This document shows, one piece after another, positions 13,141 through 60,153 of a stretch of DNA of 64,000 nt (position 1 is its first letter; each line of letters opens with the position of its first letter). The notes under the pieces were generated by a model. It was not told the DNA's origin. It ran no database searches and saw only the letters and a list, made by a program, of their open reading frames with translations. The DNA lies in the NCBI RefSeq assembly GCF_015352955.1, contig NZ_JACYOX010000011.1, forward strand, positions 1-64,000, given 5' to 3'. This DNA is from Noviherbaspirillum soli (lineage in GTDB: Bacteria > Pseudomonadota > Gammaproteobacteria > Burkholderiales > Burkholderiaceae_D). The position numbers were made by a program, and so were the translations under genes.

Positions 13141-14580
13141 TAGCACTACTCTGCCATGTTATTCAAGCTGATGCAGGTGGATGGTGGCGCCGCAATCAGG
13201 ACACCGAGCGCAAATGATGGGACGCAGCGCGGCGATAAGGGCGCGGCGTACTGCCGGTAGTGATGGCTGGGGTGGCGGCCCCGGTGTTTTGGATGCTGGT
13301 TTTTTCCCCCGCCTGTAAAGCACTGGTTAGACGTCTGTGCTGCAGATAGGTGAACGCAATCATCGTCAATAACGCATGATGGTGTAGTCCCAACCAGGAT
13401 CTGCCTTCGTAATGGTCCAGCCCAAGTTCGTCCTTGAGTTGCTGATGCGCCTGCTCGCATGCCCAGCGTGCCTTGATTGCGCGTACCAGGGTCCTGCGCG
13501 GCGTGTTGGGCGGGTGGTTGGTAAAGTAATATTTGCGCTCGCCGCTGGAGCGCGCTTCGCACACCAGCCATGCAGCCTGCCCAGGAAGATGCTGCCCATG
13601 CGATATCAGATCACCATCAGCAACGCGCACCTGCACAGCAGCAAAGCGCGTGCTGAGCATGCCCTTGGTGCCGCGGCGCCAGGAACAGCGCCGCAGTGCC
13701 TTGGGGCCCAATGTTTCAATCATCTGCACGACCGATACGCTCGGCATCGAAGGTTTTGCATGCTTGGCTGGGCGCCCCACCGGAGGATTGGCGGGCATAT
13801 CAAGCGCCACATCAGCCGGGTAGACCTTCTGTGTCGGCTGCACACCCACTGCCCAACGTAGCCCGCGCTGTGTCAGCCCGGCACGGAATTCTGCCGAACT
13901 GCCATAGCCGGCATCGGCCAGGACTGTGTCAAAGCGCACACCGTCCGCCAATGCAATATCGATCTGCGCCAGGGCAATATCGCCTTTGGTTTCAAACGAG
14001 ATCGATTCGGGCACCTTGGTTTCTGCACGCCGCGCTTTATCCTGCGCCCAGTCTTTGGGCAAGTACAGCCGCAAGGCAATCGGTATCGGCACCTCCTGTT
14101 GCGCCAAAGTGAGCGAGACCAATACCTGGCAGTTCGCCTGCTTGCCGAGTACGCCGCAGTGCTGCCGCTTGACGCCGACCGAGTGCTTGCCCTGCTTGGG
14201 CAGCGCCGTGTCGTCCACGATCAGCACAGCGTCCTCGCCGCCTACCAGGGCGTCAGCCGTCTTACGCAGCACCTGTTCCAAAGGGGCAGTGGACCAGGGC
14301 GAAGTCGACACGAAGTGGTGGAGTTGCTGCGTCTGCCCAGGGCACACACGTTCGGCCATTGGCTCGACACTCTTGCGTGCCCCTGGACCTATAAGTCCTT
14401 GCAAGTATAAGGGTGCCCAGGAACGTTGCTCGGACCGCTGAAAAACCGCCAGGAATGGTTCAAGCCATTCCTGAAAATCCTCATTCCAATCGGCACTAAT
14501 CGGAATCACGGTATCCATGAATATTCCTCCAGACCGGCATATCCAGAAATTCTACGCTTTGACATGGCGGAGTAGTGCTA
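13141..14580 (-). mobile_element. IS701-family insertion sequence
   Basis: The element is about 1,440 bp. Terminal inverted repeats are TAGCACTACTCTGCCATGT at 13141-13159 and its complement ACATGGCGGAGTAGTGCTA at 14562-14580, 18 of 19 matching. The flanking bases do not match, so no target duplication is visible. That, and the missing half of the transposase next to it, indicates a deletion or recombination after insertion. It abuts merR on the right. Confidence 0.85.
13196..14518 (-). pseudogene. IS701-family transposase with C-terminal frameshift
   Basis: A 440-residue frame begins MDTVIPISADWNEDFQEWL and carries VDDTALPKQGKHSVGV (first catalytic Asp), VLADAGYG (second Asp) and RWACEQAHQQLKDELGL (Glu region). 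After residue about 405 the frame leaves the family. The alternative frame past a G5A6 run near 13305 restores PPPQPSLPAVRRALIAALRP and a CARCPDC zinc pair, ending HLHQLE before the left terminal repeat. A one-base indel in the homopolymer (or slippage) therefore changes the tail; the catalytic core is intact. Confidence 0.75.
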
Positions 14581-15637: not shown

Positions 15638-17567
<1,930 letters not shown>

Positions 17568-22126: not shown

Positions 22127-23320
22127 ATGGGAGCGCCTGGCCTAGAGGTCGCGGATATCTTCCGCGTCCACGGGCCGGCCTGGCGCCAGGATCAGCACGC
22201 TCACCTGAGCCTGGGTCAGCGCAAGGTCATGTCGGCCATCGAACAGTGCCGCACCGCGGCGCTGGGCGGCCATGTGCTGCGCTGTGACGCCTGCGAGCAG
22301 GTCGAGATCGCCTACAACTCCTGCCGCAACCGGCACTGCCCGAAGTGCCAGGCCACTGCCGCACGGCGCTGGCTCGAAGCCCGTCAGGCCGACTTGCTGC
22401 CGGTGGCGTATTACCACGTGGTGTTCACCTTGCCGGCCCCGATCGGCGCGATTGCCTATGCCAACAAGGCGGTGATGTACGGCCTGCTGTTCGATATTGC
22501 TGCCGAAACCCTGCGCACCATTGCCGCCGATCCGCGGCACCTGGGTGCACAGATCGGTGCCACCCTGGTGCTGCACACCTGGGGCTCGGCGCTGACGCAC
22601 CATCCCCACGTCCATGGCATCGTCCCCGGCGGCGGGCTGTCGTCGGACGCGGAGCGTTGGGTCGCCTGCAGGCCGGGCTTCTTCCTGCCGGTGCGCGTGC
22701 TCTCGCGGCTGTTCCGCAGGCGCTTCCTTGAGGAACTCGGCCGGGCGCATGACAGCGGCCAGCTGCAGTTCTTCGGTGAACACGCCGCGCTGGCCGATGC
22801 GGCGGCCTTCGCCGACTGGCTCGCGCCGCTGCGCCAGTGCGAGTGGGTGGTCTATGCCAAACGCCCGTTCGCCGGGCCGGCGGCGGTACTGGCCTATCTG
22901 TCGCGCTATACGCATCGGGTGGCCATTTCCAATGGCCGACTGGTTGCCATGGACGAGCACGGCGTCACGTTCCGCTGGAAGGATTACCGCGCCAAGGGCA
23001 AGACGCGTAACAAGACCATGACGCTGGAGGCGCATGAGTTCATGCGCCGGTTCCTTCTCCACGTCCTGCCTGGGGGCTTTCACCGCATTCGTCACTACGG
23101 CCTGTTTGCCAATGCCGGACGCCGGGCGAACCTTGCGCGGGTGCGCGCGTTGCTGGGATGCGAAGCGTCCGAGGCCACACAAGCGCCGCAGGCGGCGCCG
23201 GCTGAATCAATCCGGCCGACATTCGTCTGCCCGTGCTGCGGTGGAGCGATGCGCATCATCGAGACCTTCCTGTGCCACCAGCCGATCCGTGCGCAAGCCC
23301 GGTCGCGAGGTCCGCCATGA
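22127..23320 (+). CDS. IS91-family HUH transposase
   Basis: The 397-residue product has an N-terminal zinc-binding region (CDACEQ, NSCRNRHCPKCQ), then HHPHVHGIVPGGG with the HUH metal motif and YLSRYTHRVAISN with the catalytic Tyr region. A later CPCCGG pair sits near the C-terminus. It begins nine bases after the recombinase stop. It should nick single-stranded DNA at the element ends. Confidence 0.9.
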   Translation: MGAPGLEVADIFRVHGPAWRQDQHAHLSLGQRKVMSAIEQCRTAALGGHVLRCDACEQVEIAYNSCRNRHCPKCQATAARRWLEARQADLLPVAYYHVVFTLPAPIGAIAYANKAVMYGLLFDIAAETLRTIAADPRHLGAQIGATLVLHTWGSALTHHPHVHGIVPGGGLSSDAERWVACRPGFFLPVRVLSRLFRRRFLEELGRAHDSGQLQFFGEHAALADAAAFADWLAPLRQCEWVVYAKRPFAGPAAVLAYLSRYTHRVAISNGRLVAMDEHGVTFRWKDYRAKGKTRNKTMTLEAHEFMRRFLLHVLPGGFHRIRHYGLFANAGRRANLARVRALLGCEASEATQAPQAAPAESIRPTFVCPCCGGAMRIIETFLCHQPIRAQARSRGPP

Positions 23321-30163: not shown

Positions 30164-31791
30164 CCGTGTAAAAACGGCATCCACAAGGGTGCATGCGTCG
30201 ATAGCAAGAATTGGTTGTCGATTCAGATGGTTCTGTGGATAGAGAAGCAGCGTGTTGCTGCCGAAGGCCCGTCAGGCCTTGGCCGGTATCATCATTAACT
30301 CATTGCCCATGATGCTGAGGAGCCGCTTAAAGTTATAAGCAAGTACATGCAGGCTCATTTCCGTGCTGACCCCGGCAAGGGTCTTTGTCAGGAAATGCGT
30401 GGCACCCATCCATGATTTGAGGGTGCCAAAGGGATGCTCCACCGTTTGCCGTCGCAAACGCATTTGCTCAGGGGCTTTGCTGAGCCGTTCCTGCATGGCG
30501 TCTATGACGGCTTCATGCTCCCAGCGTCTAATGCGGCGCTCCGGGCCGGTTGTACAGTCGGGCTTGAGCAGGCAGCCTCTACACGCCGGCGTCGCGTACA
30601 CATTCATGATCAAACCTTTGTCCAATGTGTCGAAGCGGCGGGTCATTGTATGCCCGGCCGGACAGCGGTACTCGTCCCGGTCTGGCATGTAGACGAAGTC
30701 TTGCTTGCCGAAGCGGCCGTCCGCCTTGGCGCCTGATGTGAGGGGCTTCGGAACGTAGGTAGCGACGCCAGCCTGGTCACAGGCGAGGATTTCTTCACCG
30801 CTGAAATACCCACGGTCTGCAACGACAGCCAACTTCTCAATACCAGTCGCTTCCCGAGCTTGTTCAGACATGTTCGCCAACTGGCTCCTGTCATTGCCGA
30901 TGTTGGTGACTTCATGAGCGACGATGAGGTGATGTGTGGTATCGACTGCAGTCTGCACGTTGTAGCCGACCATTCCCGTGCCACGGCCGCTGGTGGCCAT
31001 GGAGCGGGCATCGGGATCGGTTAGAGATATCTGCCCATCAGGCGCATCCGGAAGGCGTGCCTCAACCTCCTTCAGCGCTTGCATTTGTTCTTTGAGCAGG
31101 GTGATCTTGTCTTGCAGTCGGACCGTCTTTGCCGGCGCCTCTGCTGGCTCCGTGCGGTCGATTGTGTCCAGCATGCTGAGGTAGCGCTCGATACTCTCCT
31201 CGATCTGCTGCAGGCGTGCCTGCACCTTTGCCTTGGTAAAGTTCCGGTCACGGTTATTGACGGCCTTGAACTTGCTGCCATCAATCGCTACGAGCTGCTG
31301 CGTGAACAGGTTCAGATTACGGCACAACAGCACAAACTGCCGACAGACGTTGCGTATGCCGACGCCATTATCCTTGCGAAAGTTGGCAATCGTCTTGAAG
31401 TCCGGTGTCAGCCGACCCGTCAGCCACATCAGTTCAATGTTGCGCTGGGCTTCGCGTTCCAGGCGGCGACTCGATTGAATGCGGTTCAGGTAGCCATAAA
31501 TGTAGAGCTTCAACAGGTCGGCAGGATGGTAGGCAGGACGACCAGTGTCTGCAGGCGTCACACCTTCAAACCCGAGTGTCGCCAGGTCCAGTTCATCGAC
31601 AAAGACATCAATTACCCTCACTGGGTTCTCGTCTGTCACATAGTCATCCAACTGCGCAGGAAGCAAAATGCCTTGCGCCCGATCGCTGCCTTGGATGAAG
31701 CGCTTCATTGGCCACCTCGACACTAGTGAAAGACATCAGTGTGACAGCCCACGGCACAATTCGTTTACTAAAAGCCCGCGTTTTTACACAC
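30164..31791 (-). mobile_element. IS1182-family element inserted in a palindrome
   Basis: Ends carry GTGTAAAAACG at 30166-30176 and CGTTTTTACAC at 31779-31789 as inverted repeats. The flanks are CCCAGG on one side and CCTGGG on the other; rejoined they give the palindrome CCCAGGCCTGGG, cut at or next to its centre. No target duplication beyond at most two bases is visible. Exact end bases are uncertain by one or two. Confidence 0.8.
30272..31708 (-). CDS. IS1182-family transposase
   Basis: The 478-residue protein starts MKRFIQGSDRAQGILLP. It has the N-terminal IS1182 domain (GRPAYHPADLLKLYIYGYLN), catalytic Asp regions VAIDGSKFKAVNN and VVADRGYFSGEEI, a Cys-rich insert (CRGCLLKPDC) and RRQTVEHPFGTLKSWMG with the Glu. 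The frame is full length, so the element may be active. Confidence 0.93.
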   Translation of the reverse strand: MKRFIQGSDRAQGILLPAQLDDYVTDENPVRVIDVFVDELDLATLGFEGVTPADTGRPAYHPADLLKLYIYGYLNRIQSSRRLEREAQRNIELMWLTGRLTPDFKTIANFRKDNGVGIRNVCRQFVLLCRNLNLFTQQLVAIDGSKFKAVNNRDRNFTKAKVQARLQQIEESIERYLSMLDTIDRTEPAEAPAKTVRLQDKITLLKEQMQALKEVEARLPDAPDGQISLTDPDARSMATSGRGTGMVGYNVQTAVDTTHHLIVAHEVTNIGNDRSQLANMSEQAREATGIEKLAVVADRGYFSGEEILACDQAGVATYVPKPLTSGAKADGRFGKQDFVYMPDRDEYRCPAGHTMTRRFDTLDKGLIMNVYATPACRGCLLKPDCTTGPERRIRRWEHEAVIDAMQERLSKAPEQMRLRRQTVEHPFGTLKSWMGATHFLTKTLAGVSTEMSLHVLAYNFKRLLSIMGNELMMIPAKA

Positions 31792-33426: not shown

Positions 33427-34980
33427 TTAGTCTCGCGTCAGCACAAGGATCACGACAGCGACCTGTGTGCCTTCGAAGCGGTTGTCGAAGACTTCGCTCC
33501 ATTCGTGTGTCCAGCCTTCCATCAGCGTCTTGTTGCGACGGCTGGCCGGAAGAATGGCGACGATCTTGCCTCCATCAGCTAACAGCGTTGATGCTTTCCT
33601 GACGTGCTCAGCATCTCTGCCTTCGCTAAAGGGTGGGTTGAGGCAGATACGGTCGAACTTCGTTGGTGGATTCCACCGCAAAAAGTCCTCGCATACCGTG
33701 TTGTACCCCTTGCTCTCCAGGACCTTGCAATGCAGTTTCGAGATCTCCACACAGGTCGTGCGGTCCTTCGGCAAGTGCTCGGCGATGCTGCCAAGGCCTG
33801 CGCTGGGTTCCAGCACCGTGTCGTTCTCGCCAATGGCAGCCAGTTCGGCCACCATCGACGCCAGGCATGCCGGCGTTGGGTAGAACTGATGGGTTTTCTG
33901 GTCGGGAATCCGGCCGGTCCGCATCAACTCTTCCAGCACCGCCTGGATCGGATAGTCGAAGGACCATTCGCGCATGCTGGCGCTTGGCACACCGCCCAGA
34001 TACTGCAGAACCGCTACCGTGCGATGGTTTGCCTTGACGTCGTTGCTCCAGAAAGACAGAACCTGCCCTGTCCGGTCAACCCGGCCCCGCGACAATTCTG
34101 CCAAAACTTCAAACGGCACCAGGTCATGCACCATCGTGAAGTCCTTTGGCGCCCGTGGCGGTTTCGTTCGGAACTTGCTCGGGATAGCGGTCGGATGCAG
34201 CCACGCCAGGACCTGGTTGAGGCGGTAGGCGATGTCGGGATGCACTTCGAGGTGCGCCGTGCCTTTCATATACAGCCGCATGCGAAACGCACCACCATCG
34301 AAGCTCTTCCATTCCCCGTACTGGCCGTTGCGGTACATGTTTCTCAAGTCCTCGTCCGTCACGTTGCCAAAAGGCGCATCCCGACCCATGAATTTCGCCA
34401 TAACTACGCGAAGGTCATGAATGTAGTTTGCCCGGTCGTAGTTCAAGGTGCCGTATGAGGTTCGCAGGTACGCGACTATCATCCGCTTTCCGAAGCCCTC
34501 CGGCGCGTTGGTCACATGCTCGCCCGACAAGGCACGAAACAGGCCATCGACGCGCTCGGCAAAGAACTGCGAGCGCTGGGCCAGCAGATCGCCAATGGTC
34601 GACTTGACCGAGTCCGGCTCAAACGCCGGCGTCTTATGGCTGCGGATCTGCTCGTTCCATGCATTGCGTTTTTCTGCAGGCATGGTTTCGAGGACATCGG
34701 TCAGTGACATTGCCCGCGCCCAGAAGCTCGCATCGAGCGCGCGGACAGCCGGCTCGATAGCAAACAGACTGGCTGCACTGATGCTGCTGATCTGCTGCTC
34801 AACCTGTGCGCCGCACATGAAAAACCGCATGACGCCGCCGGTTTCGTTGGCGACATAGGCAGCAATGCGCTCCAGATCAGCGCGGTTCTTGCGATACTCG
34901 GATAGAAGCGCATCGATCGGGGTAAAGACGGACAGCTGGTTTTGTTGGCCGGAAAACAGCTCGGGTTCATTCATGTTCAT
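33427..34980 (-). CDS. DUF4942 protein with adenine-methyltransferase-like domain
   Basis: The 517-residue protein combines an N-terminal DUF4942 region (EWKSFDGGAFRMRLYMKGTAH and DIAYRLNQVLAWLHP, about 225-265) with a C-terminal Rossmann domain. That domain has QFYPTPACLASMV, VLEPSAGLGSIAEHL (SAM site, about 395-410) and LNPPFSEGRD, the NPPF motif of N6-adenine methyltransferases. Such proteins are common on conjugative elements and may protect plasmid DNA from restriction. No restriction partner is adjacent. Confidence 0.85.
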   Translation of the reverse strand: MNMNEPELFSGQQNQLSVFTPIDALLSEYRKNRADLERIAAYVANETGGVMRFFMCGAQVEQQISSISAASLFAIEPAVRALDASFWARAMSLTDVLETMPAEKRNAWNEQIRSHKTPAFEPDSVKSTIGDLLAQRSQFFAERVDGLFRALSGEHVTNAPEGFGKRMIVAYLRTSYGTLNYDRANYIHDLRVVMAKFMGRDAPFGNVTDEDLRNMYRNGQYGEWKSFDGGAFRMRLYMKGTAHLEVHPDIAYRLNQVLAWLHPTAIPSKFRTKPPRAPKDFTMVHDLVPFEVLAELSRGRVDRTGQVLSFWSNDVKANHRTVAVLQYLGGVPSASMREWSFDYPIQAVLEELMRTGRIPDQKTHQFYPTPACLASMVAELAAIGENDTVLEPSAGLGSIAEHLPKDRTTCVEISKLHCKVLESKGYNTVCEDFLRWNPPTKFDRICLNPPFSEGRDAEHVRKASTLLADGGKIVAILPASRRNKTLMEGWTHEWSEVFDNRFEGTQVAVVILVLTRD

Positions 34981-37679: not shown

Positions 37680-37706
37680 GCCCCCGATCCGGAAAAGATC
37701 GGGGGC
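37680..37706 (-). terminator. intrinsic terminator
   Basis: GCCCCCGATC and GATCGGGGGC form a perfect 10-bp stem with loop CGGAAAA, followed on the minus strand by TTTTCTTTG. It is 10 bases past the stop at 37716 and ends the DpdA-like/DUF6884-like operon. Confidence 0.88.
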
Positions 37707-37715
37707 GATACTGGG

Positions 37716-38399
37716 TTAGAAAAGTAGCCCAGCGTGTGCCGGCGCCAGTGGTTGCACGAACGCCTGCCGAATCGCTTCAGCGGGTCCGAGACGGACGTTT
37801 TCCAGTATTCGGGCGGCGATACTGCCCTTCAGATTGGTCATTGCCGCACCAAACTGCCCGGTGTGGCTTTGCTCGAGCAGCACCAGCTGGAACGCCGGCG
37901 AAAACCGTTTGACGGACCCCTTGCCGCACAGTGCCCATGTTGGCGAGTGCAGCTGCGTGACAGAGTCAAACTCGCACGCCTGCAGGTAACGATCGCCCAG
38001 AAGAATCAGGGTCATATCCGATGGCGCATCCAGAACTTCAAGGACGCTTTCCTGGATACCCAGCATGGTTGCCCATGCATGGCTTTCCTTCTTCTTCATC
38101 GTGTTGAACGTCATTTCGTAGGGAGCGATCAACTGCCCCTCTTCCACGACGCCATATCCGGCGCTCAGAATCGATATGCTGACCTTTGCGCCTTGTTCCC
38201 TGGCTGACTGAACGCCCCTCATCAAGCGGACATGCTGCTCGCCGGCGTACAGCATCCCTGCAGGCCGCATGCATTCGGCCAGTTCCGCTTCTCGGCTCCG
38301 AACATGGCTTTCGCCTTTTGCAAAGTCCTCCTGAGTGAGCTGGTTTGGGACCGAGACTGTCTTGAAACCGGTGCAGGAAGTGATGATGGAAATCTTCAT
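37716..38399 (-). CDS. DUF6884-like protein
   Basis: The 227-residue product starts MKISIITSCTGFK. It shows the pattern of DUF6884 domains: an N-terminal Ser-Cys near the beginning, MLYAGEQHVRLMRGV near residue 50, and SILSAGYGVVEEGQLIAPYE near residue 77 (family form ILSAKYGL...I.PYE.T). Such domains turn up with transglycosylase-type base-exchange enzymes, and the gene directly upstream (nine bases away) encodes one. A joint role in modified-base synthesis or insertion is inferred. Confidence 0.6.
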   Translation of the reverse strand: MKISIITSCTGFKTVSVPNQLTQEDFAKGESHVRSREAELAECMRPAGMLYAGEQHVRLMRGVQSAREQGAKVSISILSAGYGVVEEGQLIAPYEMTFNTMKKKESHAWATMLGIQESVLEVLDAPSDMTLILLGDRYLQACEFDSVTQLHSPTWALCGKGSVKRFSPAFQLVLLEQSHTGQFGAAMTNLKGSIAARILENVRLGPAEAIRQAFVQPLAPAHAGLLF

Positions 38400-38408
38400 C
38401 GTTCCTCC

Positions 38409-39647
38409 CTACGCGGCCAGTGCCAGCTCGTCAGCCTCGACGGCGCTGTCTTCGAACACGGTGGCAACTGCAACTGCCCTCATGCGCGCCGACAAGGCCT
38501 TCAATGCGGCTTCGCCAAACACCTGATTTAAGCCACAGGTCCAAAGCAAGCCCCATTCCGGATCGACCTCCTCGATGAGTTCCTTCAGACCTTCGTCGCC
38601 GGTCCGGTGCTGCCTGACCCATTCCTTCAGCCGTTTGGCATCGGTGACCCCATAGAAGCCCGCGATCGCCTTGACGTAGCGCTCCGACATCCAGCCTTGC
38701 CCGCACACCACTTCGGAAATCATCTCGGTCTGGTCGAATGATCCATCCCAAGCCTGATCCGAATGCGCTTCGATCAGCCTGGCATGCTCATGACTGATCG
38801 AAGGGGTGTTACTTCTGAGCTGGTTTGCGTCACAACTGACCTGGGCGCCGGGACAGTTTTCCAGGAAAGCGTATGCGATTTTGAACAAGGGCAGCCCCAT
38901 CGAAGCGCGGCCCAGGATATGAAATCGCCTGAAGCCGCGGATCGTTGCGACGTCAGACAAAGACATCGCCGCTGCTGCGCTTGGAATGCCGAGGGTGATC
39001 TCCCGGGTACCAAGGATGCCTGCAACCTTGTCAGCCGTTACGCCGGCTGGCGTCAGCCCCTTTTGCAGCGGGATGATGATGCTGACATTAGCACCGACAT
39101 AACCAAGGATCTTGCTGCGATGTTCCTGCAGCAGCGCCAGCGACCATTCTGGATGCGCCAACACGTCCGGCATGACCAGATGCAGGTTATGGAGACAGGC
39201 GGTCGGTGTCCCTTCCACCAGTTCGTCATAGACGGCAAACACCTTCTGGAAGTCGGCAAGCGGTGTCTCTGCTTTCCCTTCCTTCCACTTGGCGAACCGT
39301 CCGTAGGCGCCGCTGTCGACGAAGACTTTTCCTCCGCGTGACAAGTAGCTTTTCAGCAGATCCATGACGCGTGGCCGGACGAGGTCCGCAACGACGCCCA
39401 CATCCTTTCCCGCCATGGTCAATCCCAAGGCATCAAAGTAAGCGCTTCCGCCCGAATGAAACGTCGCACTGAAGCGCTCGGGACTGATGGAGTCGTTCAG
39501 GGCAAACAGGCCGCCCGTGATGACCGGGATGGTTTTCTGCAAGCGCAACGGCACTGCCTTTACTCTGACTCGTTTACTGTCTTCCGACGGTGCGCCGAAC
39601 ATATCCGTTTGCACGTTTATGGTCGCTACTGACTGCATTCCCTTCAT
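38409..39647 (-). CDS. tRNA-guanine-transglycosylase-like (DpdA-like) protein
   Basis: The 412-residue protein looks like a TIM-barrel transglycosylase: VFVDSGAYGRF at about residues 108-118 corresponds to the DSGG substrate-binding Asp of TGT; LVMPDVLAHPEWSLALL, VSIIIPLQKG, ITLGIPSAAAAMS and FHILGRASMG follow in the expected order, and QVSCDANQLRS may hold the nucleophile Asp. TGT zinc-binding Cys are not evident. DpdA enzymes insert 7-deazaguanines into DNA. It forms a two-gene unit with the DUF6884-like gene. The assignment is by motif order, not alignment. Confidence 0.55.
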   Translation of the reverse strand: MKGMQSVATINVQTDMFGAPSEDSKRVRVKAVPLRLQKTIPVITGGLFALNDSISPERFSATFHSGGSAYFDALGLTMAGKDVGVVADLVRPRVMDLLKSYLSRGGKVFVDSGAYGRFAKWKEGKAETPLADFQKVFAVYDELVEGTPTACLHNLHLVMPDVLAHPEWSLALLQEHRSKILGYVGANVSIIIPLQKGLTPAGVTADKVAGILGTREITLGIPSAAAAMSLSDVATIRGFRRFHILGRASMGLPLFKIAYAFLENCPGAQVSCDANQLRSNTPSISHEHARLIEAHSDQAWDGSFDQTEMISEVVCGQGWMSERYVKAIAGFYGVTDAKRLKEWVRQHRTGDEGLKELIEEVDPEWGLLWTCGLNQVFGEAALKALSARMRAVAVATVFEDSAVEADELALAA

Positions 39648-39972
39648 GTGTTTCTCCCTGGTCTGGTATGCCCTTGCGAGGGGCGTTCATTGAGCTGATT
39701 GCCAAAGCCTGTTTTCCGGTTTCCCGGAGTCGGCCTGGTGCTAGTGATGAGTCACACAGGAATGGAAATGCAGGATGCTGTCAGGGGGCGACAATTTCTT
39801 TGCGCAAGGAGACGCTGGTCCAGCCGCACCTGGAGCGCCGGGAGGCACGGTGCGAACGAGAGAAATGCCTAATAACAGTTGTCGCTTAATACCAAACGTA
39901 TTCATATTGACTGTGTTTGTATTATCGATATACTGAACGCCTCCTTAACTGCATTCAACGGCGTTACTCTCA
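39648..39972. other. divergent intergenic region with a sigma-70 promoter
   Basis: No gene seen. It separates the DpdA-like gene (minus) from the pair ending in the Mom-like gene (plus). A good plus-strand promoter is present at 39907-39934: TTGACT, 16 bases, TATACT. Its transcript would start near 39941, about 30 bases before the first ATG. Confidence 0.6.
39907..39934 (+). promoter_or_regulatory. promoter of the Mom-like gene pair
   Basis: TTGACT (39907-39912) and TATACT (39929-39934) with a 16-base spacer, five of six matches to each sigma-70 hexamer. Confidence 0.6.
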
Positions 39973-40287
39973 ATGGGCTACCTTAATCCTCTGCTGGACC
40001 TTCCTTCTGCAAAAGCACTGCTCGATCGCCCTTTGGATGAGCGGCTGGCTCTTGCAGCGATCTTCCGCGACCTTCGCACGCAAGCGAACGTCGAAGCGGA
40101 AAGGTCTTGGGCCAAACGCAAGGGTCCGATGGCGGCTTACTGGCGTTCGGTGTCTACTTATGCGCGGCACACGGCGCACGCTCTTAGCCAATCGAATCCC
40201 GCTGCCATTCCTGTGCAAACCACCCGGCCTGCTGAATCGGCGGACAGCCATTGCACATCCGATGCGGCCGCGGAGATCTTCCAATGA
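39973..40287 (+). CDS. 104-residue hypothetical overlapping the Mom-like gene
   Basis: Starts MGYLNPLLDLPSAKALLD. Helical, basic in the middle (AERSWAKRKGPMAAYWRS), with a disordered tail and a single Cys. Its stop overlaps the Mom-like start (ATGA), so the two are translationally coupled. In phage Mu the com gene likewise overlaps mom, but Com is a zinc-finger protein and this product lacks the Cys cluster. Confidence 0.6.
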   Translation: MGYLNPLLDLPSAKALLDRPLDERLALAAIFRDLRTQANVEAERSWAKRKGPMAAYWRSVSTYARHTAHALSQSNPAAIPVQTTRPAESADSHCTSDAAAEIFQ

Positions 40288-41189
40288 ATGCCGGTTTCCC
40301 CTACGGCCCTGCACAGGCATGCCAGCGCTGGACAAAACGCCGCGTGAGTTTCAGGCCAGCCGGGGAGCTGTTCAACCCGGACAGGCATGAGGTCGTCCTG
40401 TTGAATGACACCGACGCGAAGGCGTTCTGTGCCGAGCACCACTACGCTGGAACACTGCCGCCCGCCAGATTGCGTGTCGGCCTCATGCGCAAGATGGCAT
40501 TTAGCCCGGATGCCCTTGTCGGCCTCGCCGTGTTTAGCGTCCCCATGAAAAATGCAGTGCTGGAAAAGTACCTCAAGGCGGACATGGAAACCGGTGCGGA
40601 GCTGGGCCGCTTCGTGTGCACGGAGGCGGTCGAAGGCAATGGCGAATCATGGCTTATCCGCGCGGCCTGCCGCCTGCTGCAAAGGGAAACCAAAATACGG
40701 TCCATCGTGAGCTATTGCGATCCGCTGCCACGCACGGATGAGTTCGGCCGCATCACAAAATATGGCCATGTCGGGACAATCTACCAAGCTTCTTCGGCGA
40801 AGTTTCTTGGCCGCTCGTCCCCGCGCACGTTGGTTCTTTCGCGCAGTGGGCAAGTGATTAGTGAACGGGCATTGTCAAAGATTCGGGCGGGTGAAAGCGG
40901 TGCTGCCTATGCGTATCGCCAGTTGCTGGCCGCCGGCGCACCGGAAAGGGAATGGGGCGAAGAACCGGGCGACTACGTTCGCCGCGCGCTCAGTTCGGGG
41001 GCCTTCACCAAATTCCGCCATCCTGGTAATTATGTGTACGGCATAGGATGCGGGAACAAGCTGGAACGCCGTCTTGCCAGTTCACGCCTGGGACCAGGCC
41101 TGCCCTATCCCAAGGCTGAGCTGGTATCCATCGCATCACGCAACGACTGGGTACCTTCAAACATGGACTTCAACGTGTTTGCCGCCTAG
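40284..41189 (+). CDS. Mom-like GNAT-type DNA modification protein
   Basis: Starting at ATG 40284 (MNAGFPYGPAQACQRW), the 301-residue protein has the layout of Mu Mom relatives: HHYAGTLPPARLRVGL, LVGLAVFSVPM, ELGRFVCTEAVEGNGESWLI, then IVSYCDP and YGHVGTIYQASSAKFLG, matching the SYAD...GH.GTIYQA.N pattern. Mu Mom turns adenine into N6-carbamoylmethyladenine and so protects DNA from restriction. The same chemistry here is inference. It is expressed from the promoter at 39907 after a short coupled gene. Confidence 0.65.
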   Translation: MNAGFPYGPAQACQRWTKRRVSFRPAGELFNPDRHEVVLLNDTDAKAFCAEHHYAGTLPPARLRVGLMRKMAFSPDALVGLAVFSVPMKNAVLEKYLKADMETGAELGRFVCTEAVEGNGESWLIRAACRLLQRETKIRSIVSYCDPLPRTDEFGRITKYGHVGTIYQASSAKFLGRSSPRTLVLSRSGQVISERALSKIRAGESGAAYAYRQLLAAGAPEREWGEEPGDYVRRALSSGAFTKFRHPGNYVYGIGCGNKLERRLASSRLGPGLPYPKAELVSIASRNDWVPSNMDFNVFAA

Positions 41190-41219
41190 ATCAGGGATTC
41201 GCATCTCACTCCGGTCCTG

Positions 41220-41300
41220 TTACTTGCTTCTCAAGGACAGAAACACCACCACGGCGAAAAACCCGCCGATGAGCAGCAGTATGTAGTCGAGCGGACTCAT
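41220..41300 (-). CDS. 26-residue membrane microprotein, copy 1
   Basis: ATG at 41300 with AGGAGAAATC upstream opens 26 codons ending at TAA 41222-41220. The product starts MSPLDYILLLIGG, continues with a hydrophobic helix and ends LRSK. A second 26-residue ORF at 41433-41513 begins MSPLDYMLIGIG and ends LRGK: same length, same first six residues, same basic end. Such conservation supports both as genes. One membrane span with basic C-terminus; function unknown. Confidence 0.65.
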   Translation of the reverse strand: MSPLDYILLLIGGFFAVVVFLSLRSK

Positions 41301-42535: not shown

Positions 42536-43384
42536 TTACGCCGCAACCGGCTGCTCCTGCGGCTTCTTTTTGGCGCGTGAGGCCCTTGGCTTCTTTACCG
42601 GCGCGGGTGCCGAGGGAACGACATAGCCGAACCGCTTCCAGACCTCTTCGCTGACCTGCAGGGGGGAAGTTCTCCCCGACTTCAGGTTCACAAAGATGCC
42701 GTGGCAGGCGATCTGTCCATGCTGGAAAAGCTCCGTCAGGATATTGCAGGCAAACATCGCCACCGAGGTGTTGATGAACAGCGACTGCTTTTCGAGTGCG
42801 TCAGCCAGAGAGCAGCTGGGCACGTCGTCTGTGGCGTCCTGGGTAGGATCGATCAGTTCCGGGTACAGGTCCGCAGCGTGTGGCAGCCGCGGCACTTTGC
42901 GTTCCTTGGCGATCTGTGGGCAGACCTCGCCCAGCACCACCTGACCGTCGCCGAGACGATTGCCGCAATCGAGCCAATACTGCACCCGGTTGCGTTGCGC
43001 CGCCTGCAAAATTGCCAGACGTGCCTTGCGGTTGTCCACGCAGCCAATGACGATCTGCGCTTTCAGCACGCTGTTGCTATCTATCCGCTCTACCCGACTC
43101 GACCAGTTCAACTGGAAAGCCAGGTTGATGCGATTGATGATCGTTGCCGCCTTTGCCGAACCGATATCGCCCGGATAGAACGACTGCCGGCCGACGTTGG
43201 CTTCGCTGACGGTATCGTCATCCCAGAGCGTGACATGCAAGCCGCCAGGATGGCCGAGTGCGATCAACGCCAGATGCAGCCGCACCAGGTTGTTCATCAA
43301 CTGCGACCCGGTGCCGCCGGCGCCGATGACGGCAACCTGTACCTGCCTGTTGAGAAGCTGGGGATGGATTTGATGGATTGCCAT
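42536..43384 (-). CDS. PRTRC system ThiF protein (E1-like)
   Basis: The 282-residue protein starts MAIHQIHPQLLNRQVQVAV at ATG 43384, which overlaps the protein A stop by one base (TAATG). It has the ATP-binding VIGAGGTGSQL, WDDDTVSEANVGRQ, VIGCVDNRKAR and a Cys in DDVPSCSLADAL (Cys191), placed like the thioester Cys of E1 enzymes. It should adenylate the C-terminus of a ubiquitin-like protein; PRTRC C is the obvious candidate. A basic Ala/Lys-rich tail follows. Confidence 0.92.
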   Translation of the reverse strand: MAIHQIHPQLLNRQVQVAVIGAGGTGSQLMNNLVRLHLALIALGHPGGLHVTLWDDDTVSEANVGRQSFYPGDIGSAKAATIINRINLAFQLNWSSRVERIDSNSVLKAQIVIGCVDNRKARLAILQAAQRNRVQYWLDCGNRLGDGQVVLGEVCPQIAKERKVPRLPHAADLYPELIDPTQDATDDVPSCSLADALEKQSLFINTSVAMFACNILTELFQHGQIACHGIFVNLKSGRTSPLQVSEEVWKRFGYVVPSAPAPVKKPRASRAKKKPQEQPVAA

Positions 43385-43995
43385 TATTGTCCCTCCCACT
43401 TGTTGCCCATGTCGATGTACAGGCCATTGGCGCACAGGCGAAACCTGCACTCGATGTCGCCATCGAGCTTGCCAAACACGCCAGCGACCTTGAACTCGCC
43501 ACGGTCATCACGGTTGTCTTCGGAAGAGAAGAATGCCGGGAGGCGACCATGGGAATGCAGGTCGACCACCAGGTGCTCGTTGTCAGCCAGCGCGGGCCGG
43601 TTAAACGCCACCGATGCGTTGGACACGGACGTTGGGACCATCTTGACCAGCTTGCACTGGTCGGTCTCATCGTTCCAGATGATCCAGGCAGCACATTCGA
43701 GCGGACAGACGTCACGGGCGAAAGAGATGAACTCCTCGACCAGACGGCCCGGCACTTTCTGCACCTGCACCACGGGCTCGACCGCGCCGTAAGGCATGGC
43801 AACCTGCGCCTGCTTCGCCAGATTCCAGCGAAGATAAAGCCATGCCCTGCGTGCTTCCAGCCAGAGGCCGTCAGCCGCTGCAAGGAAGCGGTGGCCATGA
43901 CGCGCCATTGGGACAAAGGGTTCATGGCGAGGCACCATGACAGTCGGTGTGGCTGACTGCAAAACAGCATCGATACGGTTAAGCATGGTTAGCAT
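43384..43995 (-). CDS. PRTRC system protein A (JAMM-type peptidase)
   Basis: The 203-residue protein carries DLHSHGRLPAFFSSED, an intact JAMM motif (His-x-His, seven residues, Ser-x-x-Asp), preceded by PLECAAWIIWND. JAMM enzymes remove or mature ubiquitin-like proteins. It begins three bases after protein B ends and overlaps ThiF by one base, so the three are translated together. Metallopeptidase activity is inferred from the motif. Confidence 0.9.
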   Translation of the reverse strand: MLTMLNRIDAVLQSATPTVMVPRHEPFVPMARHGHRFLAAADGLWLEARRAWLYLRWNLAKQAQVAMPYGAVEPVVQVQKVPGRLVEEFISFARDVCPLECAAWIIWNDETDQCKLVKMVPTSVSNASVAFNRPALADNEHLVVDLHSHGRLPAFFSSEDNRDDRGEFKVAGVFGKLDGDIECRFRLCANGLYIDMGNKWEGQ

Positions 43996-43998
43996 TCC

Positions 43999-44712
43999 TT
44001 ATTGGAGTTTATGGATTAATTTTTGGGCGGTGACATTCGTGCTCACCAGGACTTCATTGGGAAAAGTGGTGAACTTCCCGTCGAGCATGTCGCGCCAGAA
44101 GGCAAAGCAGCCGTGTTCCCAGAGGACCAACTGGTTCAGTCCGTGGATGTTGGGATGGGTAAAAGCACTTTCGAAGAAGGCCTTCGTCCATGCATCCGGG
44201 TTGGTGACGGCTTCCTTGGTTGGCGTGCGCGTGGAGCCGGTACAGATAGCGCCACCGGACCAGACGTTGAAGTACGGCGAAACGTACAGGGCCGTGTCAG
44301 CCGTTGGACGTTTGTTCTCTGCGAGCGCAAAGACATACCAGCTTGCCCCCTTCACCACGAACAGCAGCGCGGGATGCGGCACGATGGCTGCGCGCTTTCC
44401 CAGTTCCTTGCATTTGAAAGCAATGCGCCGGGACTTGGCTTCTTCCCACCACACCATGCAGTCGTCGGTTAGTGCGATGACGTTCGGGTGCAGCAGTTCG
44501 AGCGGCTTGCGCACGGCTTCCTTGACGCATTCCAGCATGTCGAGCAGGCCGGCCTTGGTCGCGCCGCGCCCTTCGCCAATGACTGGACCGGCAGCGGTCT
44601 GGACCACGGCATTGATCGTGACCAGGTCGACGCTGTCCGGGTTGGCCCCGTACATCAGAATGGCATGCTGCAGTGAATAGGACGGGGTGGACTGATACAG
44701 GTTGACGTTCAT
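43999..44712 (-). CDS. PRTRC system protein B (E2-like)
   Basis: The 237-residue protein starts MNVNLYQSTPSYSLQHAI. The region SPYFNVWSGGAICTGS resembles the (P)F.NV...G.VC.G active-site segment of E2 conjugating enzymes, placing the putative catalytic Cys at residue 157. This family is classed as a prokaryotic E2 (Prok-E2_D). It is the first gene of the B-A-ThiF operon. The substrate of conjugation is unknown. Confidence 0.9.
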   Translation of the reverse strand: MNVNLYQSTPSYSLQHAILMYGANPDSVDLVTINAVVQTAAGPVIGEGRGATKAGLLDMLECVKEAVRKPLELLHPNVIALTDDCMVWWEEAKSRRIAFKCKELGKRAAIVPHPALLFVVKGASWYVFALAENKRPTADTALYVSPYFNVWSGGAICTGSTRTPTKEAVTNPDAWTKAFFESAFTHPNIHGLNQLVLWEHGCFAFWRDMLDGKFTTFPNEVLVSTNVTAQKLIHKLQ

Positions 44713-57301: not shown

Positions 57302-58618
57302 ATGTTTTTTAGCGTAAAAGCGTCGCCGGCGTCCAATGGCCGCGTGCGCCACCTCTACCACTTGGGCGCCCTCGTGGCGATTGCCATCATTCCGGCGTTC
57401 AGCCACGCTCAAAGCTCGGTCCTTACCCTGGACCAAGCGCTTCAACTGGGCGTCCAGCGCTCTGCCTCCAGCCAGGCAGCCGTGGCCTCCGTGCAGGCGA
57501 GTCGGGAAATGGCTGCAAAGGCCGACCAGTTGCCTGACCCAATGCTGAAATTCGGCATCGACAACGTGCCGGTCAACGGGCCGGATAAGTTCAGCCTGAG
57601 TCGGGACTTCATGACTATGCGCCGCGTGGGCATTGAACAGCAGTGGGTATCCGCCGACAAGCGCACCGCCCGGGCTGAACGTGGCCAACGTGCAGTTGAT
57701 GCCGAAGAAGCCAGTTACTTGACCAACGTTGCCAAAGTCAGGGAAGAGACGGCCGTTGCCTGGATAAACCTGTTCTTTGCTCAGCGTTCCCTCGCATTAC
57801 TCAAGGCTTTGGAGTATGAAACGAACCAGGACCTGACGACTGGTCAGGCGGCGCTGCGAGGCGCGAAAACTGGCGCTGCCGATGTCCTTCAAGCCCAGCT
57901 GGCTTTGTCGCAGGCGCAGGACCGCACCCGGAAAGGCGAGCAGATGCTCAAAAGTGCCAGGACGGCATTGTCCCGCTGGGTGGCCGTACCCGTGGAGTCC
58001 GTGACTGGCTCCCTGCCACCATTGACCTCCCATGTCCCAAATCTGCCGGTCGACGAGTTGGAGAAATACCACCCGATGCTGTTGAGCGCACGTCGCGCCA
58101 TCACCCTTGCTGATGCAGACACCGCTGTCGCCACGAGAGAACGCAGTCCCGATTGGAGCTTTGAAGCTGGCTATGCGCAGCGGGGCAGCCAGTATTCCAA
58201 CATGGTCTCAGTCGGCGTGACCATCCCGCTGCCGGTGAACCGGGCACAGCGGCAGGACCGCGATATCGCCGAAAAGTCGGCACTCGGCACCAAAGCCCGG
58301 ATGCAGTATGAAGAGGCCCTACGCGAGCTGCGGGCAGAAATTCAAGACCAATCCCTGACCCTGTCCAGCCTCCAGGAGCGGGGGGCACAGCTGAAAAAGG
58401 AGCTTCTGCCCGCGGCGAACCAGCAGGTCGAGTTGGCCATGGCGGCATACCGGTCGGGTACGGGCAGCTTGGCGGCAGTATTCAATGCAAAACGGATGGC
58501 CTTGGACGCCCAGATGCAAGTGCTGGACGTTGAAAAGGAAGCGGCTACCACTTGGGCCAAGCTCGAATACCACGTCATTCCACACAGTCAAGTCGCCACA
58601 GGGAGAGCTGAGCAATGA
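57302..58618 (+). CDS. cusC: outer-membrane factor of heavy-metal RND efflux (CusC type)
   Basis: Starting at ATG 57302 after AGGAGAATTC, the 438-residue TolC-family protein has a signal peptide ending FSHAQ and two repeated halves with SQAAVASVQASREMAAKADQ and DPMLKFGIDNVP typical of metal-efflux channels. It forms the exit duct. It overlaps cusB by ATGA. The lipid-anchor Cys of E. coli CusC is absent. Confidence 0.85.
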   Translation: MFFSVKASPASNGRVRHLYHLGALVAIAIIPAFSHAQSSVLTLDQALQLGVQRSASSQAAVASVQASREMAAKADQLPDPMLKFGIDNVPVNGPDKFSLSRDFMTMRRVGIEQQWVSADKRTARAERGQRAVDAEEASYLTNVAKVREETAVAWINLFFAQRSLALLKALEYETNQDLTTGQAALRGAKTGAADVLQAQLALSQAQDRTRKGEQMLKSARTALSRWVAVPVESVTGSLPPLTSHVPNLPVDELEKYHPMLLSARRAITLADADTAVATRERSPDWSFEAGYAQRGSQYSNMVSVGVTIPLPVNRAQRQDRDIAEKSALGTKARMQYEEALRELRAEIQDQSLTLSSLQERGAQLKKELLPAANQQVELAMAAYRSGTGSLAAVFNAKRMALDAQMQVLDVEKEAATTWAKLEYHVIPHSQVATGRAEQ

Positions 58619-60153
58619 AATCGAATTTCGCATTGAAAGGGCTGGCCTTGGCTCTCGCCGGCGCAGGACTGGCATACGGCGGCTACTGGGCAGGAACTCA
58701 TCAGCAGGCTCCTGCAACCATGACTTCTACCCCAGCGCCCATTGCCGCGACTGGCGACAAGGTTGACCCAAAGACAGGACGGGCGGTGCTCTACTGGCAC
58801 GACCCTATGGTGCCTGGGCAAAAATTCGACAAACCGGGACGGTCTCCCTTCATGGACATGGACCTGGTCCCGGTATACGCCGACGAAGCATCTGCAGAGG
58901 GCGGCGTAAAAGTCAGCTCAACCCTGCAGCAAAATCTGGGCATTCGCTTCGCCACTGTTCGCAAAGAAGAAACGCGAGAGTCGTTCGACGTGGTTGGCAC
59001 GACTCAGTTCGACGAAAGCATCTCTGAAGTCGTTCAAAGCCGAGTGACCGGCTACATCGACCGGCTTTATGCTCGCGCGCCCATGCAGCGCGTCAAGCGC
59101 GGGGAGCCGGTGGCCTCGCTGTTTGTGCCTGACTGGATTGGCCCCCAGGAGGAATACCTGGCGCTCAAGCGGTCAGGCAACGAGACGCTTGCCGCGGCGG
59201 CTCGCCAGCGGATGCAGGCACTTTCAATTCCGTCCGGTCTGATTGCGCAGACGGAGCGTACCGGGCAGGCGCAGAGCCACCTGACGCTGACGTCGCCAGT
59301 CACCGGCGTCATCACTGAGTTGGCGGTGCGTGAGGGCGCAATGGTGTCCCCTGGTATGACCGTGGCCAAGGTCGCCGGCCTGAACAAGGTCTGGCTGGTT
59401 GCGGAAGTGCCGGAAGCCCTGGCCAGTTCAGCACGGGCTGGAATGTCGGTAGAAGCGGCGCCCGCCGGCGACACAAATCGGAAGTACACCGGTAAGGTGC
59501 GCGAAATTCTGCCTGGCGTCAGCACGACCACGCGGACTGTGCAGGCCCGCCTTGAGCTAGACAACCGGGACGGCAGCCTCACGCCGGGAATGCTCATGCG
59601 CGTCCGCCTCGGCGCCGACAAGTCGGTTACCCGGCTGCTGGTGCCGACTGAGGCTGTCATCGCTACCGGAAAGCGGTCGGTAGTCCTAGTCGCCGGCGAC
59701 CATAACAGCATGCAGCCGGTCACCGTCACAACCGGTCGTGACATCGGGGACGATACCGAAGTCCTGAGCGGGTTGGAGGAAGGCCAAAAGGTCGTCGCTT
59801 CAGGGCAGTTCCTGATTGATTCAGAAGCCAGCCTCAAGGGCGTCCTCCCGAAGTTAGCCAGCGCAGCGCGAGCACAGGGAAGTTCGGTTTCAGAGCCAAC
59901 CTCCACAAGCATGTCACCGGTCTACCGCGGTGTCGGCAAGGTCGAGAAGGTGTCCCCGAAAAGTCTCACCTTTTCCCATAAGCCGATTCCCGAGTTGAAA
60001 TGGCCGGCGATGACCATGGACTTTGCCAAGCCCAGTCCGGACGCGTTTCCCCACGCCCAAGTGGGCCAAGAATTCGAGTTCTCGTTCAAGGAAGGAAAAG
60101 ATGGCAGCTACCTGCTCGAAACCGTCACACCAGCCGGCGGAGGCAGGAAATGA
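58615..60153 (+). CDS. cusB: periplasmic adaptor with fused CusF-like domain (CusB type)
   Basis: The 512-residue adaptor has an N-terminal anchor, a heavy-metal-binding segment ([30 protein letters not shown]), then barrel-sandwich and beta-barrel domains ([20 protein letters not shown]). From about residue 435 a CusF-like domain is attached, with [16 protein letters not shown] holding the Trp and Met ligands for Cu(I)/Ag(I). Overlaps with cusC and cusA show a tightly coupled operon. Confidence 0.9.

Follow-up and report, generated by a model that had tools for sequence, protein, structure and literature searches.

A barrel gene of the TGT/DpdA type and its DUF6884 partner on a Noviherbaspirillum soli replicon: a candidate module for guanine exchange in DNA

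Dpd islands and phages are known sources of DNA containing 7-deazaguanines, and the genes concerned often lie near others for synthesis of the base. In the Dpd island DpdA is accompanied by DpdB, a protein with a DndB domain (as set out in a passage of PMC11888242), and DpdC reportedly converts dPreQ0 to dADG (in part of PMC12839542). Passages of the latter paper also propose that DNA modifications of the GNAT type and of the tRNA-guanine transglycosylase (TGT) type act together in BREX-related capture (BRC), and a section of a jumbo-phage paper places Mom in the GNAT superfamily (PMC7824862). Polyvalent-type domains have been proposed, in a portion of PMC5512222, to act in early invasion, and a large DarB-like protein is described in an extract of PMC9144972 as a component of the phage virion. 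Here, two adjacent genes are described from Noviherbaspirillum soli, one coding for a barrel protein of the TGT/DpdA type and the other for a DUF6884 protein, both within a 64,000-base stretch (positions 1-64,000 of contig NZ_JACYOX010000011.1, assembly GCF_015352955.1) that is called the window and to which all numbering refers. The barrel protein very probably belongs to the TGT/DpdA superfamily, and the pair is, in the reading that we prefer with moderate confidence, a replicon-encoded module for guanine exchange in DNA that would use preQ0 from the host and would confer an antirestriction benefit.

That the pair consists of real, adjacent genes was confirmed: both open reading frames (ORFs) lie where a preliminary description of this DNA had placed them, and the spacer between them is exactly the nine bases that it had counted (Table 1). 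The barrel gene comes first and the DUF6884 gene second, as separate genes. In the barrel protein DSGAYGRF begins at residue 111 and is followed in order by the further TGT landmarks that had been claimed for it, six landmarks in all standing in sequence. The partner likewise has the pattern that had been read in it, ILSAGYG...APYE, with CTGFK at residue 9 and LSAGYG at residue 78.

A structural match to a TGT barrel, the lack of which had been named beforehand as a refutation of the assignment, was found. The AlphaFold2 model of the full protein has a mean predicted local distance difference test (pLDDT) score of 73, with 173 of its 412 residues at a pLDDT of at least 90, mostly in the core, and the core modelled alone reaches a predicted template modelling (pTM) score of 0.86. 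When the top 1000 chains of Foldseek were re-ranked by VIA-align, in which rows within 1 Z count as ties, the full model placed first the bacterial DNA preQ0 insertase DpdA 7ui4 (Z 13.6, root-mean-square deviation 3.2, 186 residues aligned), and 49 of the best 50 rows of the 1000 were DpdA or TGT. With the core model, TGTs filled all of the best 50 rows (Z 12.1-12.9) and 7ui4 was not among these 50.

Residues were counted in a family alignment of 27 members (A3), for which 26 of 31 viral loci were used (L025, L032, L040, L041 and L045 being omitted as near-copies or for long inserts); a further alignment (A5) used 24 of the 31. The other 26 members of A3 are 22-33% identical to the window barrel. 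Invariant in all 27 are S65-G66, G84, F109-V110-D111-S112-G113-A114, Y140, P160-D161, G197, P222, A227, H243, L245-G246 and D273; 25 members retain Q195 and 26 retain R278. Because D111, S112, G113, D161, G197, H243, L245, G246 and D273 are identical throughout the alignment, the barrel motifs are more than chance. Their order, DSG(A), PD, P(L)Q.G, GIPS, HxLG and DAN..R, is that found in phage 9g DpdA, in the DpdA2 candidate of Vibrio phage nt-1 (an ORF assigned to DpdA2 on the basis of its position and motifs) and in the DpdA proteins of Nostoc and Paenibacillus. By patterns chosen by eye, two of which gave no match when tried on the host TGT, the landmarks D111, D161, Q195, G220, H243 and D273 stand at offsets 0, 50, 84, 109, 132 and 162, compared with 0, 35, 80, 105, 133 and 155 in Nostoc and 0, 35, 81, 106, 135 and 158 in Paenibacillus; in 9g (0, 42, 69, 90, 124, 143) and in the nt-1 ORF (0, 36, 96, 128, 159, 190) His replaces Gln, and the host TGT has D, D, Q and its final D at 0, 54, 103 and 180. 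The DSG/DCG motif, which holds the general acid/base Asp in DpdA, is D111-S-G in all 27 members, DSGAF in 9g and DCGAF in Nostoc. The second Asp, D273, follows the H..G strand near the end of the barrel, at a place that corresponds by profile match to that in the nt-1 ORF, and is the putative nucleophile.

By eye, the His of HxLG stands at the position of the Tyr in YLMG of TGT, the equivalent motif being HLLG in 7ui4, HLFG in Nostoc and HGFG in 9g, and this residue would lean towards DpdA rather than a tRNA TGT. A passage of PMC6884629, which names no reference protein, reports a conserved His at position 196 of phage DpdA that is absent from DpdA2; residue 196 of 9g is the His of VHGFG, equivalent to H243, and the nt-1 ORF also has His there. 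Set against 12 sequences, the hidden Markov model of A3 matched 9g DpdA at E 8.6e-6 (in the DSGAF block), the nt-1 ORF at 7.5e-4 (in the HxLG-to-Asp block) and Nostoc DpdA at 0.0051, and by hhalign the family scored 94.8% with 9g DpdA (P 5e-8 over 86 columns; reversed control P 0.32). Of the 27 members, 16 match the PHROGs family phrog_887, named 'queuine tRNA-ribosyltransferase', with E-values that do not exceed 0.1 (the best is 8.7e-8); the matches lie mostly in the DSG-to-PD half (4 of the 10 members given, E up to 0.01). Similarity to the characterised DpdAs takes the form of partial profile matches only. The CxCxxC zinc motif, present in Nostoc DpdA, Paenibacillus DpdA and the host TGT, was found neither in the window barrel nor in any of the 27 members as cut (viral proteins in A3 are trimmed approximately to the barrel region and the count covers those stretches), nor in 9g DpdA and the nt-1 ORF. 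On this motif strict membership of DpdA fails for the window barrel, as it does for 9g DpdA. Since GIPS replaces the GG-L-A loop and PLQ.G replaces V/IQGG, the pocket is also probably remodelled on its C7 side. The label DpdA-like, given in the preliminary description, thus holds for the fold and for the invariant residues of catalytic type, whereas the zinc-site motif is lacking and the genome gave no DndB/DpdB match; the barrel is best described as a new subfamily within TGT/DpdA, carried by plasmids and, to judge from the IMG/VR loci, by phages.

The partner matches DUF6884 in Pfam (PF21818) at 4e-11, with 43.6 bits against a cut-off of 30, which upholds the name first given to it; it also matches DpdC of PADLOC at 1.7e-12 and, below cut-off, YaaA (PF03883) at 1.5e-5. 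Both of the motifs listed for DUF6884 in part of PMC11701544, CxxxK and LSAxxG, are present. Six DUF6884 homologues were examined whole. The one with the best E-value, from Pelobacter (L012), is a stand-alone protein; the three that follow it are long proteins in which the domain occupies the N-terminus or a place near it, and two of these, from Nostoc and Paenibacillus, are annotated as DpdA. The partner shares homology with the N-terminal domain of proteins annotated in this way.

In the host genome a clear QueC lies on contig C72 and a 974-aa frame gives a further, partial QueC match; C16 carries a QueD/PTPS-type protein and C43 one full-length TGT, and because of these genes a host source of preQ0 is plausible. 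In keeping with the first description, no que gene was recognised among the 27 window proteins scanned; the accompanying proposal of a base supplied by the host gains plausibility from the host genes, and preQ0 would be its most likely identity. In the preferred reading, D273 would attack C1' of guanosine and guanine would depart, D111 would serve as general acid/base, and a 7-deazaguanine, most likely preQ0 from the host queuosine pathway, would be inserted, with the base pocket lined by D161, Q195 and G220. The DpdC-like DUF6884 partner would then alter the inserted base, by analogy from nitrile to amide (dPreQ0 to dADG), and the modified guanine would protect the replicon DNA from restriction, beside a Mom-type adenine modifier. 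What we infer comprises these residue roles, the choice of DNA over tRNA as the substrate, the identity of the base as preQ0, the reaction carried out by DUF6884 and the antirestriction effect, as well as the making of a modified base at all. The opposite choice of substrate would make the barrel a plasmid-borne extra TGT or salvage enzyme that alters queuosine-type tRNA bases, helped by DUF6884 as a protein that binds RNA or DNA. The TGT fold agrees with this, as do the tRNA TGTs that form most rows of both re-rankings and the position of 7ui4 outside the best 50 of the core model. However, the host already has a full-length TGT, His replaces the Tyr of YLMG as in DpdA, the partner is DpdC-like, and relatives occur on plasmids and within long proteins of viruses, one such protein also having DNA methylase and helicase domains; a tRNA substrate is in our view unlikely.

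Several results weigh against DNA guanine exchange and the placement on which it builds. The barrel protein alone gave no match in Pfam, NCBIfam, PADLOC or PHROGs at E up to 1, and PF01702, the Pfam TGT family, matched neither the window barrel nor any of the 27 family members at the same threshold. In the ranking of Foldseek itself no TGT is among the best 50, xylose-isomerase-like proteins, aldolases and OMP decarboxylase barrels coming first, and the remaining row of the best 50 in the full-model re-ranking is an aldolase at Z 12.5. For these reasons the fold alone is not decisive, and since the Foldseek order does not single out TGT the placement leans on the fold together with the residues. 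The profile comparison with DpdA that had been suggested at the outset gave 94.8% with 9g but was weak with nt-1 DpdA2 (26.1%; reversed control P 0.29) and with the Nostoc/Paenibacillus domain (26.8%, P 6.8e-4), in the latter case because the reversed control already reaches P 0.0086. DUF6884 was not found in the flanks covered around the barrel at 7 of 10 plasmid and 30 of 31 viral loci, so that the barrel often works without it and does not need it everywhere; stand-alone DUF6884 relatives on two plasmids (L012 and L016) conversely have no such barrel in the flanks covered. These tallies, like those for Mom below, come from home-made profiles (11 and 3 sequences, respectively), which may miss distant copies. 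Lastly, the DndB family (DpdB-type, PF14072) had no match in the host genome at E up to 0.001.

By tblastn at an E-value of at most 0.01, relatives of the barrel were found in 54 of 72,556 plasmid records, including 31 from Pseudomonas and 7 from Vibrio, and are mostly labelled hypothetical protein. An alignment-based scan of IMG/VR gave 31 barrel loci, and the window barrel used alone found no relative in that database; 50,697 named phage records held no match for the window barrel or for two viral family members, and 9g DpdA as a control matched 236 of them. The phage side of the family is therefore that of the 31 IMG/VR loci, some of which may be misfiled plasmids and some of which are, by appearance, near-duplicates or on the same contig (L031/L032, L024/L025, L040/L041 and L045/L046). 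The best match among BFVD models, 25% identical, is named ART-PolyVal-like, and one BFVD model from an uncultured phage agrees with a phage side. A PDB sequence search returned ferritin (E 0.34) as its sole match, which was rejected as chance, and no description of the family was found in the open-access literature searched. On a Geoalkalibacter plasmid (L003:5890-7259) the barrel is split over two overlapping frames, as a broken gene or a frameshift. The A3 profile found the barrel in three of four genomes of the genus and, at the level of the family, in 4 of 145; in the class search, which scored at most six candidates per genome and may have missed some members, the genome of the window itself was the only one of 369 to have it.

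Besides the window, four related loci carry the pair in the same order: one in Noviherbaspirillum suwonense, two in N. pedocola and one in N. galbum (L076-L079, which are the same as L081-L084 and are counted once). Four of the five Noviherbaspirillum-type loci, window included, lie in 3 of the 4 genomes of the genus and the fifth in another genus of the family, and by the home-made profile DUF6884 adjoins the barrel in all five. The gap between the genes is nine bases in L076 and six in L077, and in L078 they overlap by ATGA. The barrel is 94, 72, 53 and 49% identical in amino acids to its counterparts at the four related loci, and the partner 87, 71, 45 and 45%; the ratio of nonsynonymous to synonymous substitution rates (dN/dS) is 0.155-0.254 and 0.208-0.378, respectively, values that are rough for the two most distant loci because their dS of 1.5-2.2 puts synonymous sites near saturation. 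With dN/dS below 1 for both, the genes look functional. Elsewhere the two domains are fused in 3 of 10 plasmid loci, DUF6884 standing first in Vibrio (L009 and L010) and last in Cupriavidus (L008), and they share one protein in 1 of the 31 viral loci (L033). The dN/dS values also bear on a further alternative, a DNA glycosylase-like effector that would remove a base from host or competitor DNA without replacing it and leave the abasic site to DUF6884/YaaA. The occurrence of viral relatives in long proteins with polyvalent-type domains would suit such an effector, as would the lack of recognised base-synthesis genes beside the pair and the report, in a section of PMC11701544, that the interactors of abasic and RNA-base lesions include YfjM, a DUF6884 protein. 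A dN/dS below 1 on a resident replicon is nevertheless a poor fit for a toxin, and the barrel retains the Asp of base-recognition type together with the Q.G motif, which is what a base acceptor site would be expected to have; removal without replacement is therefore judged improbable.

Of the 31 viral barrels, 24 lie in ORFs of at least 1000 aa. In one viral protein (L033:4795-12627, plus strand) the barrel, DUF6884, a match to ART-PolyVal, an N6-methylase and an SNF2 helicase stand in a row, the methylase and the helicase above cut-off and ART-PolyVal below it. Six viral proteins and one plasmid protein were scanned whole, and these hold LPD1 in two, LPD38 in one and an inorganic-pyrophosphatase (InPase) domain in three, all of them domains of polyvalent type; the plasmid protein, of 2206 aa from Cupriavidus (L015:2664-9284), joins the barrel to LPD1 and is thus of polyvalent type. 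All three pyrophosphatase domains are in the viral proteins, preceding the barrel in L017:5269-7035 and L023:1516-12681 and following it in L020:5392-7641. This joining of a pyrophosphatase-type domain to the barrel in three of six viral proteins, together with GIPS and PLQ.G in place of GG-L-A and V/IQGG and the pocket change they make probable, would speak for exchange of another base or for a precursor other than preQ0, with DUF6884 acting on that product. The changed loop does mean that the base may not be preQ0, but genes of the preQ0 pathway are present in the host, and we regard this variant as rather unlikely.

Beside the pair (Table 1) lies a gene for a Mom-family protein (PF25680 at 2.9e-17, 63.5 bits against a cut-off of 27.1; phrog_1384, Mom-like, at 3.5e-24). 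Mom is present at 3 of the 5 Noviherbaspirillum-type loci and was not found at the 10 plasmid and 31 viral barrel loci with the 3-sequence profile. With Mom and the pair together, adenine and guanine would both be modified by one replicon. No Pfam match was obtained for the small ORF before Mom, of which approximately the first 70 codons are similar to a hypothetical gene next to traJ of the IncP plasmid pA1; in the search for the nearest plasmid DNA to 37700-41300, all 10 matches listed cover only this ORF. In phage Mu, com overlaps mom in a similar manner. A distance of 2.7 kb separates the partner gene from the DUF4942 gene on its left, whose methyltransferase-like product possibly belongs to the same protective set; on two Pseudomonas plasmids, L002 and L005, annotation likewise places DUF4942 genes near the barrel. 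The pair adjoins a PRTRC cluster, ParB is encoded in the window, and on an Azonexus plasmid the barrel comes directly after the PRTRC ThiF. Three transposases lie between metabolic and metal-related genes, as in a mosaic accessory replicon, and the oxidoreductase with an HMA domain is one that we take to be mercuric-reductase-like. None of STAND, HerA and PglZ was recognised among the 27 window proteins scanned, and PADLOC gave no match to DpdD-K or restriction genes among 10 neighbouring proteins. The last result concerns the alternative that the pair forms part of a full Dpd restriction-modification island, to which the DpdC-like partner and the DpdA-like barrel would belong. With no DndB-type match in the genome added to it, such an island is very improbable; by the parts tested, the pair as read from its sequence is neither a Dpd island nor a canonical Dpd system.

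Table 1. Features of the window referred to in the text
Feature	Position	Strand	Remarks
Transposase gene, DDE_5	13196-14518		
HMA-domain pyridine-nucleotide oxidoreductase	15933-17567		heavy-metal gene
Transposase gene, IS91-type Y2	22127-23320		
Transposase gene, DUF772/DDE	30272-31723		
DUF4942 protein with C-terminal DNA methyltransferase-like domain	33427..34980	-	PF13708 7.5e-27; phrog_6263 'DNA methyltransferase' 3.8e-170
DUF6884/YaaA/DpdC-like partner, 227 aa	37716..38399	-	ORF, ATG start
Junction, 9 bases, barrel stop to DUF6884 start	38400..38408	-	GGAGGAACG; ribosome-binding-site-like
TGT/DpdA-like barrel protein, 412 aa	38409..39647	-	ORF, ATG start; barrel core at about residues 55-300, helical C-terminal part at about 305-400
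Small ORF, 104 aa	39973..40287	+	overlaps Mom ATG by 4 bases (ATGA)
Mom-family DNA adenine modification protein	40284..41189	+	ORF opens at TTG 40251, ATG at 40284; divergent to the pair
PRTRC genes: ThiF, protein A, Prok-E2 protein	42536..44712	-	TIGR03736 2.1e-99; TIGR03735 4.7e-66; Prok-E2_D 2.5e-51
CusB/HlyD protein with CusF domain	58615-60153		heavy-metal gene

Taken more widely, it can tentatively be suggested that the barrel represents a family of DNA transglycosylases, so far without a name and independent of DpdB and of base synthesis of its own, which would let plasmids and phages mark incoming or resident DNA with a guanine analogue supplied by the host. Plasmids would encode it as a single gene, a pair or a fusion, and in phages it would be one domain within giant proteins of polyvalent (DarB-like) type, perhaps injected with the DNA; here it would be joined with Mom, to give modified guanine and modified adenine on one replicon. 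If this is true, the use of base exchange by mobile elements is wider than annotation reveals, the window barrel being a protein that receives no name from Pfam, NCBIfam, PADLOC or PHROGs. A question of enzyme mechanism is also raised, because the pocket loop and the zinc site differ from those of TGT.

Compared with known systems, the barrel shares its fold with the bacterial DpdA 7ui4, and the pair shares with the DUF6884-fused DpdA of Nostoc and Paenibacillus the order D, D, Q/H, G, HxxG, D as well as the likeness of the partner to the DpdA N-terminal domain. The window barrel differs from bacterial DpdA in giving no single-sequence match to it and in having no CxCxxC, and GIPS and DAN..R stand where bacterial DpdA has GGLA and FDSxSPLR; unlike the fused proteins, it is encoded by a gene of its own, which precedes that for DUF6884. 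Dpd systems further differ in their DpdB, for which the genome gave no match, and in restriction genes, none of which was seen among the scanned neighbours. Of the phage enzymes, 9g DpdA aligns in its DSGAF and D.iGD blocks and nt-1 DpdA2 in the block of HxLG and the second Asp, and both resemble the window barrel in having no CxCxxC, whereas their genes lie among phage preQ0 synthesis genes and the window pair does not. DUF6884 was not found in the phage stretches covered (50,000 of 56,702 bases of 9g and approximately 75,500 of 247,511 of nt-1).

The partner agrees with DpdC, DUF6884 and YaaA in its PADLOC and PF21818 matches and in keeping both the CxxxK and the LSAxxG motif, and is shorter than the DpdC profiles, at 227 aa against approximately 300. 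BRC has in common with the window a TGT-type gene with a GNAT-type neighbour, here Mom; it differs in STAND, HerA and PglZ, none of them recognised among the 27 window proteins scanned, and the window has instead a two-gene module with Mom on a PRTRC replicon, including a DpdC-like gene, which BRC is without as presented in passages of PMC12839542. The words TGT, TIM barrel, Mom and deazaguanine do not occur in the main text of the 2017 paper on polyvalent proteins (PMC5512222). With these polyvalent or DarB-like antirestriction proteins the family shares a barrel domain set in long viral proteins among polyvalent-type domains, whereas in the window the domains are encoded as separate genes.

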